From the NCBI RefSeq assembly GCF_024181725.1, contig NZ_CP028908.1, positions 868,001-932,000 on the forward strand: a stretch of DNA of 64,000 nt, given 5' to 3'. Below, in pieces: positions 20,371 to 55,958 of the stretch; positions within the stretch are counted from its first letter, which is position 1, and each line of letters begins with the position of its first letter. The notes beneath the pieces were generated by a model that did not search any database, had not been told where the DNA came from, and worked only from the letters and a program-made list of their open reading frames with translations. The position numbers were made by a program, and so were the translations under genes. Source of the DNA: Bradyrhizobium sp. WD16 (GTDB lineage Bacteria > Pseudomonadota > Alphaproteobacteria > Rhizobiales > Xanthobacteraceae).

Positions 20371-21153
20371 TCACCAGGTGGTGAGGATCGTGCCGTTGAA
20401 GCGCTGATCGGTGAACGCCTTTACCTCCGGCGAACGGTAGATCTCGACGAACCGCTTCAGCGTCGGATTGTCCTTATTCCTGACGCGGACGGCGAAAACC
20501 AGATTCCAGTTCGTGTCGGCGCTCTCGAGCAGCAGCGCCTTCTTGGGATCGAGACCGGCGCCGAGGGCGTAATTCAGATTGACCGCGGAGAAGTCGAGAT
20601 CGTCGAGCGAGCGCGGCAGCTGCGCGGCGTCGAGTTCGAGCACCTTCAGATGCTTCGGATTTTCGGCGATGTCGGCGATGGTCGCCTTGATGCCGATCCC
20701 AGGCTTCAGCTTGATGAGCCCGGCCTTCTCGAACAGTTGCAGGGCCCGGGCGCCGTTCGACGGATCGTTCGGGATGCCCGCCCTGGCGCCGTCCTTGATC
20801 TGGTCGAGGCTCGTAACCTTGCTGGAATAGAGGCCGATCGGAACGATGATGCTCTTGGCGATCGAGACGATGTCATAGCCGCGCTGCGCCACCTGATTGT
20901 CGAGATAGGGCTGATGCTGGAAATTATTGATGTCGAGTTCGTCCTGCGCCAGCGCCGCGTTCGGCACCGTGTAATCAGTGAATTCGGTGATCTTCAGTTC
21001 GATCCCCTCCTTCGCCGCGAGCTGCCCGGCATAGCGCAGGATCTCGGCATAGGGACCGGCGGTGGTCCCGATGCGGATCACCTTGGTGTCCGCCGCGGTT
21101 GCGCCGGCGGCGAAGCCGAGCGTCAGGACAACAGAAAGAAGCGTCCGGATCAT
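20371..21153 (-). CDS. metQ: MetQ/NlpA-family methionine-type substrate-binding protein
   Basis: The 260-residue protein has a Sec signal peptide (about residues 1-20) without a lipobox. It carries MetQ hallmarks: [17 protein letters not shown] near residue 26, the [17 protein letters not shown] block near 70, and [25 protein letters not shown] near 130. MetQ delivers methionine or methionine sulfoxide to MetNI, not encoded here. The gene is close to full family length. A CTAG hairpin array begins only 37 bases upstream of its ATG, so its promoter lies within or has been displaced by the array. Confidence 0.85.
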
Positions 21154-21189
21154 GCAAAACGTCCTTGCGCGTTGAGTGGGAGCAAGCGG

Positions 21190-21518
21190 CTCGTGTCCCG
21201 TCTCCGAATTACCGCTTCGTTTGCCTCACCCTCGCACGGTCATTCGGAGACATCAGGACACTAGCAAAATCAAAGTGCTAGTGTGGTGGATCTGACGCTC
21301 GTTTCAGTATTGCAGCGAGTTCTTCGAACGAGCGTCAGATCCAAAACCACACTAGAATCATAATGATGCTAGTGTCCCCTTGTTTCCAACGTTCGTATGA
21401 GCGCCTGCTGCAATGGGATACGAACGTTGGAAACAGGACACTAGTGTGGCTTATGTCTCGCAATTGCCTACAGCGGCTTGCCGCAATGGGCATAGGCAAT
21501 TGCGAGACGCCACACTAG
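21190..21518 (+). repeat. Modular CTAG-bounded hairpin array, locus 1
   Basis: Four palindromic modules of 75-78 bases stand head to tail. U1 is 21190-21264, U2 21278-21355, U3 21369-21444 and U4 21441-21518. Each is bounded by CTAG (the left end of U1 has decayed to CTCG). Outer arms are of two classes: TGTGG/CCACA in U2 and U4, TGTCC/GGACA in U1 and U3. Inner stems of about 15-18 bp differ between modules, with loops of about 19-23 nt. U1 is followed by a 13-nt tail CAAAATCAAAGTG and U2 by a 13-nt tail AATCATAATGATG. U3 and U4 share one CTAG. The loops of U3 and U4 share the core GCAATGGG. Confidence 0.92.
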
Positions 21519-22636
21519 CGAGCGCGCACGACCTGCGCCGAGCGCGCGTCGCGGGCGGGAATTCCAAATTCGCTTTTGGCAATCGTTCCGAACAACCGTA
21601 CGCGCCGCGCCCGCCGAAGTTGGAAATTGCGCAATGCCTCGCGCGCCAGCTCCGGCGTCGAGGCTGGCTGCTCGGCGCCATCCGCCGGGCGGAGGCCGGC
21701 CGCCTCGAGACCGACGATCAGGCGCTCGGTGCGCAGATGCGCGGCGCTGCTGTCGACATGATAATAAGTATCGAGCATGTGCTCCGGGGCGAAATAGGAA
21801 TCCTCGACCTCGCCGACGACGGCAAGGCCATGGCGTTCGAACAACGCCCGCGCTTCCTGCGCCAGCGGCAATCGGCCTTCTTTCAGGTCGTAGCAGTCGC
21901 GTCCCGCCACCGCCGGCCAGGCCAGATAGACGCGGACATGGCGGTGGGCCTGCAACTCCGCCAATTGCCGCACGGCCCATTCGACCTGCGGGACGATCCG
22001 GCCGGAAGCGGCGATGTAGGCGGCGCAGGAAATCCCCTCGACGCTCGATCGCCGGCGGCTGTCGTCCTTCCAGTCGCCCAGCGGCCATTTGCTCATCTGC
22101 ATGTCGATGCGCGCGTAGTGGCTTTCGGCGAGATCATTCCGCAGGAACAGGCGGATGGCATCCGACAGATTGTGCAGCGAGGCGTGGGCGACGATGAAAG
22201 CGAGCCGGTCCGGCCATGGCAGGCTGGCATAATAGGCCGCGTATTCGTCGGGGGTGTTGTCGACGAAGTCCTGCGGCATGTCGTCCCGGGTGTAATAGAC
22301 CCATTCCAGGGGCAGGATCAGCGTATCGCCGTCCCTTGCGTATTTAAGCAGGCGATGGATCTTCATCTCGAGCGGAATGCTGCCGTTGTCGGCGACGTCG
22401 ATCACCGGCGTGCGGAACGCCTGTTCGATCAGCCCCGGCTCGATGCCGAACATCGAGCTCGATCCGGCGTCGACGACGATGCGCGGCGCCGGAATCTGCT
22501 CGAACAGGAATTGCGAGTAGCTGTAAGGCACCCGCCTGTTCGCGGTGGTGACCGCGTCATAGGTCGCAACCATCGCGCCGGCGCTCAGCGCCGCGCCGCC
22601 AACCGCCGAGAGGAGAAACAGCGCCAGTTTCCGCAT
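21515..22636 (-). CDS. Membrane-anchored MBOAT partner protein (AlgJ/AlgX-like role), C-terminus ended by a repeat
   Basis: The 373-residue protein has one N-terminal membrane segment or signal anchor (MRKLALFLLSAVGGAALSAG) and a periplasmic domain with RIVVDAGSSSMFGIEPGLIE near residue 52, which looks like a GDS/SGNH-hydrolase-type serine block. HVDSSAAHLRTERLI lies near the C-terminus. It directly follows the MBOAT gene, with two bases between the MBOAT stop and its ATG. Such pairs O-acylate exopolysaccharide, the MBOAT moving the acyl group across the membrane and the partner transferring it. Its stop codon is formed by the CTA of the hairpin array boundary, so the native C-terminus may be altered. 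Family identity is tentative. Confidence 0.65.
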   Translation of the reverse strand: MRKLALFLLSAVGGAALSAGAMVATYDAVTTANRRVPYSYSQFLFEQIPAPRIVVDAGSSSMFGIEPGLIEQAFRTPVIDVADNGSIPLEMKIHRLLKYARDGDTLILPLEWVYYTRDDMPQDFVDNTPDEYAAYYASLPWPDRLAFIVAHASLHNLSDAIRLFLRNDLAESHYARIDMQMSKWPLGDWKDDSRRRSSVEGISCAAYIAASGRIVPQVEWAVRQLAELQAHRHVRVYLAWPAVAGRDCYDLKEGRLPLAQEARALFERHGLAVVGEVEDSYFAPEHMLDTYYHVDSSAAHLRTERLIVGLEAAGLRPADGAEQPASTPELAREALRNFQLRRARRVRLFGTIAKSEFGIPARDARSAQVVRAR

Positions 22637-55552: not shown

Positions 55553-55958
55553 CTAGTGTCCTGTTTCCAACGTTCGTATCCCATTGCAGCAGGCGCTCAT
55601 ACGAACGTTGGAAACAAGGGGACACTAGACTAGTGTGGCGTCTCGCAATTGCCTATGCCCTTTGCGGCAATCCTCTCATAGGCAATTGCGAGACATAAGC
55701 CACACTAGCTTTTTGATTTTGCTAGTGTCCCGATGTCTCCGAATTACCGTGCGAGGGTGAGGCAAATGAAGCGGTAATTCGGAGACAGGACACTAGCATC
55801 ATCATGATTCTAGTGTGGTTTTGGATCTGACGCTCGTTCGAAGAACTCGCTGCAATACTGAAACGAGCGTCAGATCCACCACACTAGTGTGGCGTCTCGC
55901 AATTGCCTATGCCCTTCGCGGCAAGCCCCTGGCAATTGCGAGACATAGGCCGCACTAG
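55553..55958 (-). repeat. Modular CTAG-bounded hairpin array, locus 2
   Basis: Five modules lie inverted relative to locus 1: U3' 55553-55628, U4' 55630-55708, U1' 55722-55796, U2' 55810-55887 and U4'' 55884-55958. U3' and U2' are exact reverse complements of U3 (76 bases) and U2 (78 bases) of locus 1. U1' differs from U1 at about five positions, and the U4 copies differ mainly in the loop. Read on the minus strand the order is U4''-U2-tail2-U1-tail1-U4-U3. U1 is again followed by a CAAAATCAAA-type 13-nt tail and U2 by an AATCAT-ATGATG-type 13-nt tail. U2' and U4'' share one CTAG. Confidence 0.93.

Follow-up and report, generated by a model that had tools for sequence, protein, structure and literature searches.

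The window analyzed here, a stretch of 64,000 nt of Bradyrhizobium sp. WD16 (NZ_CP028908.1), contains two arrays of long palindromes, array 1 at 21190-21518 and array 2 at 55553-55958, both lying between predicted reading frames or at frame ends (Table 1). The modules are imperfect palindromes, 75-79 nt long in the window, with ends of the form CTAGTGTSS / SSACACTAG, and they fall into four stem types, here named A, C, B, and D (U1, U2, U3, and U4, respectively, in a preliminary description made from the sequence of the window). Two outer ends of the window arrays are degenerate. Each window module is asymmetric, with a long arm that carries 3-4 extra nt just inside the tip and a short arm without them. 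Locus 1 has the order A-CAAAATCAAAGTG-C-AATCATAATGATG-B-D, and locus 2, with five palindromes, reads D-C-AATCATGATGATG-A-CAAAATCAAAAAG-D-B on the minus strand; the spacers in both arrays are 13 nt long. Re-reading of the sequence confirmed the module order and the spacer length given in the preliminary description, together with its statement that U2 and U3 are base-identical between the loci: the two B copies are identical over 76 nt and so are the C copies, the single mismatch of a 100-nt match falling in the spacer. Of the 18 CTAG sites in the window, 3 are located outside the two arrays. At 21515-21518, the outer CTAG of the element provides the TAG stop of the adjoining open frame.

Table 1. 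Positions of the palindromes, spacers, and dimers of the two arrays in the window.
Feature	Position	Strand	Remarks
Locus 1, palindrome A, left half of host AD dimer	21190-21264	+	Outer end CTCG
Locus 1, spacer of AD dimer	21265-21277	+	CAAAATCAAAGTG
Locus 1, complete inserted BC dimer	21278-21444	-	Covariance model R1, 170.5 bits (the sequence itself is among the 31 used to build R1)
Locus 1, C of BC dimer	21278-21355	-
Locus 1, spacer of BC dimer	21356-21368	-
Locus 1, B of BC dimer	21369-21444	-
Locus 1, palindrome D, right half of host AD dimer	21441-21518	-	CTAG at 21441-21444 in common with B
Locus 2, palindrome B (U3), left half of host BC dimer	55553-55628	+	Short arm 5'
Locus 2, extra single A at the B-D insertion junction	55629-55629	.	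Between two CTAGs
Locus 2, palindrome D (U4), first half of inserted AD dimer	55630-55708	+
Locus 2, whole inserted AD dimer	55630-55796	-	Covariance model R1, 128.8 bits
Locus 2, 13-nt spacer of AD dimer	55709-55721	-	CAAAATCAAAAAG on minus strand
Locus 2, palindrome A (U1), second half of inserted AD dimer	55722-55796	-
Locus 2, 13-nt spacer of host BC dimer	55797-55809	-	AATCATGATGATG on minus strand
Locus 2, palindrome C (U2), right half of host BC dimer	55810-55887	-
Locus 2, degenerate D without partner	55884-55958	+	CTAG in common with C; outer end GCACTAG

The exact pattern CTAGTGTSSN{25,60}SSACACTAG was found at 558 places in the 5.945-Mb single-contig genome and a control pattern at 0, which is far beyond chance. 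The arrangement of the palindromes was analyzed in 58 loci plus the window, namely 19 stretches of the first 458 kb, the 23 best matches to the window array, and 16 surroundings of IS630 elements, a sample in which window-like arrays and IS630 surroundings are over-represented. Loci within or beside those used (L001, L003, L006, L016, L018, L021, L027, L034, L044, L047, L072, L083, and L085) were left out, as was a locus with a Y1 gene and a broken palindrome (L031); about 17 of the first places listed among the 558 (17 clusters below 728 kb) lie outside this sample. De-duplication of the arrays by sequence gave 104 arrays with 305 hairpins, 21 of them single.

In this sample, 90 of the 94 spacer-joined pairs in opposite orientation, with the long arms inward, combine A with D or B with C. 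Because the partners are fixed, the 13-nt "tails" are best described as spacers belonging to both hairpins. More specifically, the mobile unit, as judged from sequence, is a heterodimer of about 163 bp made of two palindromes and the 13-nt spacer, either A-CAAAATCAAAGTG-D or B-CATCATTATGATT-C. This dimer is non-coding, too small to encode a transposase, and present in many dispersed copies. The preliminary description had taken a hairpin with its own tail as the unit and had allowed free adjacency. Tails are indeed associated non-randomly, random association not being seen in the genome sample, but each tail is a spacer common to two hairpins and free adjacency is not supported. A further 30 spacer-joined pairs of the sample have both members in the same orientation, which is what insertion beside a spacer would leave.

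A grammar of nested dimers, in which whole dimers are removed and their CTAGs merged, explains 220 of the 284 hairpins of multi-hairpin arrays, compared with 17.1 +/- 5.6 when labels are shuffled over the same connectors (maximum 38 in 2000 shuffles). Full reduction was obtained for 25 of the 40 arrays of at least 4 hairpins, against 0.12 expected; overall, reduction was complete for 41 of 83 multi-hairpin arrays and left remnants in the other 42, some of which ISs have split. A dimer was interrupted by a two-hairpin block in 21 instances (19 of the blocks canonical dimers) and by one hairpin in a single instance, a D-D arrangement that is ambiguous. The host dimer of a nested insertion is otherwise intact and is split at one CTAG, where duplication of TA and duplication of CTAG are indistinguishable. 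Read in this way, locus 1 consists of an AD dimer interrupted by a BC dimer at the inner CTAG before D. In locus 2 the host is a BC dimer, an AD dimer having entered at the CTAG that follows B (plus the extra A), and a partnerless D comes next. Most junctions of the genome sample have one common CTAG, unlike the B-D junction of locus 2. A single long ancestral element, from which both loci would derive by deletion, is not needed, the order following from insertion of a dimer at a CTAG inside or beside another.

The proposal of independent mobile modules, each one hairpin plus its own 13-nt tail and joining freely, agrees with the appearance of the two window loci taken alone. The fixed partners on either side of the spacers, the predominance of two-hairpin blocks among the insertions, and the presence of the two-hairpin layout elsewhere in Alphaproteobacteria (71 of the 71 dimers with both sides parsed) speak against it; it is largely refuted, and we give it almost no credence. 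What stands of the preliminary description is that the parts are mobile, that they were recently copied, many palindrome copies in the genome sample being identical, and that their arrangement follows a grammar.

Identical copies in such numbers would also suit a shuffled order that arose without transposition, through homologous recombination or gene conversion among the copies, and the few mixed pairs found in the sampled stretches (B-D 3, C-A 1) point the same way. However, the junctions lie on CTAG, removal of one dimer restores another, and IS630 copies occupy the same CTAGs, and we regard this explanation as very unlikely. With respect to the insertion sites, 40 of 154 outer CTAGs end an open frame of at least 150 codons with TAG, compared with 29 of 308 for the two remaining frames, an excess that includes eight equal-length rows resembling copies of one IS flank. 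Such an excess is consistent with an element that enters CTAGs already present where genes end; new stops created within genes would look the same.

The junctions number 259 in forward and 265 in reverse orientation. Within the first 458 kb, the dimers of the sampled stretches are balanced in orientation (AD 15 vs 11, BC 10 vs 6), and no replication-strand bias was seen there. This balance of the dimers is one of the points that weigh against REP/BIME elements moved by a RAYT (TnpA_REP, a Y1 single-strand transposase), an explanation brought up by the likeness of the dimers to REP families of the GTAG and CGTC types, which the accessible text describes as multicopy palindromes that often build head-to-head dimers (PMC3733652). 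The ends found here are CTAG and not GTAG or CGTC, and the palindromes measure about 75 nt and not 20-40. The dimers have no linked RAYT, and the sole Y1_Tnp match of the genome is flanked by a different repeat; movement by a RAYT thus appears hardly tenable. This RAYT-like Y1 match (L031, G000 C1 54293-57613) has its own TTAAGTGCACTGTCACC-type repeat on its flanks, and a nearby palindrome A is broken off beside such a repeat. Br-REP1 and Br-REP2, multicopy intergenic palindromes of Bradyrhizobium and Rhodopseudomonas, resemble the dimers in being of this kind and in this host, but they are set apart by their published consensus sequences, taken unaligned from the accessible text, which have no CTAG ends (PMC5082802).

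Two other candidates were rejected. Mixing of stems as a way to avoid long palindromes finds no echo in arm identity, which is 10.62/16 within dimers and 10.60 between them. An autonomous version of the element between a D ending at 122448 and an A at ~123730 turned out to be an IS3-like element (by eye), which lies inside the spacer region of an AD dimer (L058, G000 C1 ~122448-123729).

A hairpin scan of 60 genomes, own genome included, detected the palindromes in 12 of the 36 that belong to the same family and in 0 of the 24 outside it. A GTDB scan for one strict dimer junction returned at least 120 stretches; the dimers of other genomes considered here come from the 80 listed, of which 13 are from one bin and are not independent. 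The titles of 74 of these 80 stretches carry what we take to be alphaproteobacterial names, and 6, from three bins, are titled Proteobacteria only. In 398 genomes of the phylum the strict pattern was found in Bradyrhizobium sp. WD16 only. With a covariance model derived from 31 dimers, the element was detected in 16 of the 289 genomes searched within the class, own genome included. On the basis of these matches, the dimer element is widespread but patchy across the class, as mobile elements are. The window BC dimer can be aligned end to end with 30 dimers of other genomes, and elsewhere in Alphaproteobacteria the two-hairpin element has other stem sequences. In 9 records of Roseibium/Labrenzia plasmids a dimer is located where an SDR gene ends, and an Ochrobactrum plasmid carries a decayed dimer; a plasmid search with the window array and a phage search with a Nitrobacter dimer returned no match. 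Several single observations accompany this survey: two IMG/VR contigs have the strict dimer junction (L240 and L241), an outer CTAG of the element is the TAG stop of the adjoining SDR gene at 1164-1167 of L242, and short-loop two-hairpin versions of 117-131 nt occur (L256-L261; G653 and G849).

The design of the dimer is conserved. Among the stretches listed, 82 matches were found, and the long arms point inward in 71 of the 71 dimers parsed on both sides; among the remaining 11, of which 7 are cut by the end of the stretch, 10 show the same inward orientation and one contains a symmetric hairpin. For the spacer, the consensus CAAcTtTaTGATT was obtained. The stems show strong covariation, with 25 of 52 pairs and 170 cells changed on both sides, a level reached by 0 of 500 shuffles, and 95.7% of stem cells pair, compared with 85.1% in shuffles and 25-39% in slid controls. 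Covariation of this strength, together with the position of both window loci between predicted reading frames or at their ends, would be expected of a structured RNA, in which the palindromes are kept for transcript folding (as terminators, mRNA stabilisers, or small RNAs) and their spread is secondary. RNA covariation usually passes through G-U pairs, which are however rare here, at 11 of 2016 stem cells with a parser that allowed at most 2 non-Watson-Crick per 12 pairs and therefore disfavours G-U-rich stems, and at 26 G-U vs 1517 Watson-Crick pairs in the alignment. This rarity argues for upkeep of the stems at the DNA rather than the RNA level. Moreover, an Rfam search of 21000-21700 (locus 1) gave microRNA-like matches far below threshold, the best being MIR840 with 31 bits vs 150, and spread and nesting are those of a transposon, making a structured RNA an unlikely explanation.

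The genome carries one IS630-family element in 9 near-identical copies of ~1.18 kb (NF033545, 254 bits with a cut-off of 100; DDE_3). CTAG is present on both sides of 9 of the 9 copies, and 6 of the 9 are located in or beside palindrome arrays. In a set of ten comparisons, the right end of this local element agrees with the D arm at 13/19 (p 7.5e-5), with an A-arm variant at 13/19 (p 1.5e-4), and with the commoner A form at 12/19 (p 8.4e-4), and the left end reaches 12/19 with the D arm (p 7.5e-4). The agreement between the two ends of the element is 11/19, about the level of their resemblance to the A and D arms. The match to the class-wide dimer-arm profile is weaker (left end p 0.02, right end p 5.6e-4). 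Two transposase queries found no IS630 with B- or C-like arms in this genome.

Relatives of this element were found at E <= 1e-60 in 25 of 198 family genomes (own included). A set of 29 IS630 loci, in which three pairs are copies within one genome, was searched for ends, and CTAG was found at both ends in 21 and at one in 3, while 5 yielded either no ends or ends that are not at CTAG. Five distinct elements (L222, L226, L228, L229, and L092) match the class-wide dimer-arm profile with both ends at p <= 3.5e-5, the floor of this comparison being 5e-6; for GTGG-type IS630 ends p was 0.0024 or worse. Among 48 IS ends scored, the 19 (15 distinct) that passed the core score are all in register with the outer arms of the dimers; the ends of the local IS630 fall below this score. 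The inner dimer arms all (142 of 142) deviate from this register by 2-5 nt, and the outer arms stand at offset 0 in 142 of 142, which is partly built in, as the profile was made from those arms. No IS end starting with TGTGG was found in the IS630 loci searched, leaving the GG-type end without an autonomous counterpart. Co-occurrence of the palindromes with this IS630 clade is imperfect: the IS630 query returned nothing at E <= 0.001 in 5 of the 11 other palindrome-bearing genomes and short fragments only in a sixth, and one genome (G026) has 9 IS630 relatives and no palindrome in the hairpin scan.

Taken together, these sequence comparisons make it likely, in our judgment, that both loci consist of nested copies of a non-autonomous MITE of the IS630 / Tc1-mariner type that moves as a dimer, the mobiliser probably being an IS630-type transposase. 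The element of about 163 bp is composed of CTAG, a palindrome ending in TGTCC, the 13-nt spacer, a palindrome ending in TGTGG, and CTAG, and the outer, short arm of each palindrome would be the working terminal repeat. The inner, long arm, which has 2-5 extra nt between tip and core and is out of the IS630 register, is probably no end, and the two palindromes would therefore travel together. We propose that, with the outer arms in register and the inner arms shifted, the outer ends alone are functional and the two palindromes move as a unit. We infer that the enzyme, an IS630-family transposase supplied in trans, would excise the element at its outer ends and insert it at the TA of a CTAG, so that CTAG would flank it on both sides. 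Since CTAG is scarce in this GC-rich genome and each intact element supplies four, new copies would land in or beside old ones, giving rise to shuffled arrays.

Several known systems can be compared with this element. The IS630 of Shigella sonnei, reportedly studied by Tenzen and Ohtsubo in 1991, is said to prefer TA within CTAG, in which it is like the dimers; it differs in being autonomous. CTAG is also given as the IS630 target in the accessible text on IS630, which contains no such miniature dimers (PMC6811581). RUP of Streptococcus pneumoniae, a MITE proposed to move with IS630-Spn1, is likewise small, with IS630-like ends and a TA target, but in the portion of the review available it is one 107-bp unit, whereas the element described here has two palindromes, out-of-register inner ends, and CTAG nesting (PMC2229807). 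No description of a CTAG two-hairpin dimer was recognised in the accessible parts of the literature covered, from which subscription papers are largely absent.

The dimers of the other genomes listed have a further feature, GANTC, which 55 of 71 carry at one fixed position of hairpin 1 and 6 of 71 carry in hairpin 2, compared with shuffle expectations of 7.5% and 9.2%, respectively. In seven IS630 elements with similar ends GANTC is present in one end only; L225 and L234 have none, and none was found in the A-D arms of the own genome. GANTC is the CcrM site, and control of the element by CcrM methylation is a speculative idea. The name CIR reportedly stands for the Caulobacter CcrM-associated intergenic repeats of Chen and Shapiro (2003). 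According to the part of a review available, CIR consist of two inverted repeats forming two arms with a linker, have 5'-TA-3' termini, a length of ~110 bp, and GANTC, and occur in Caulobacter, Brucella, and other alphaproteobacteria, with more information needed on their mobility (PMC2229807). Compared by these descriptions only, the dimers are similar in their two palindromes with a spacer, their CTAG (TA) termini, their alphaproteobacterial hosts, and a length that the short versions bring close to that of CIR; the GANTC of hairpin 1 may be a further resemblance. They differ in their usual length, in the IS630 link proposed here, in the position of GANTC, which is in the stem near the tip and not at the terminal loop as in CIR, and in the arms without GANTC of the own genome. 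We regard the dimers as an IS630-type MITE variant, perhaps in one superfamily with CIR. A class-wide two-palindrome family, possibly including CIR, in which a register lock (inner ends 2-5 nt off register) would leave the outer pair alone visible to an IS630 transposase and a GANTC in one end would tie jumping to the cell cycle, is a tentative idea that we consider rather doubtful.

If this idea is true, upkeep of the palindromes at the DNA level would let the stems follow a changing transposase specificity. The reading as nested IS630-type dimers, for its part, makes the odd shuffled array legible as a record of insertions and proposes a testable mobiliser for two-armed repeats that are widespread in Alphaproteobacteria. 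The suggested design rule is that outer ends in register and inner ends shifted make a four-repeat element move as one.

Other IS630-like elements of the genome were also observed. One (by eye), with its transposase in two reading frames and ends AGCAGACTCCG / AGCAGGCTCCG, is located at a CTAG directly beside the first IS630 copy (L063 8217-9274, G000 C1 ~277816-278873). Another IS630-related element, with ends TCGCCCGATTCATTCAG / TCGCTCGCTTCAAATAA, is represented by ten copies (L080-L089), which lie at CTAG, several of them beside palindromes.
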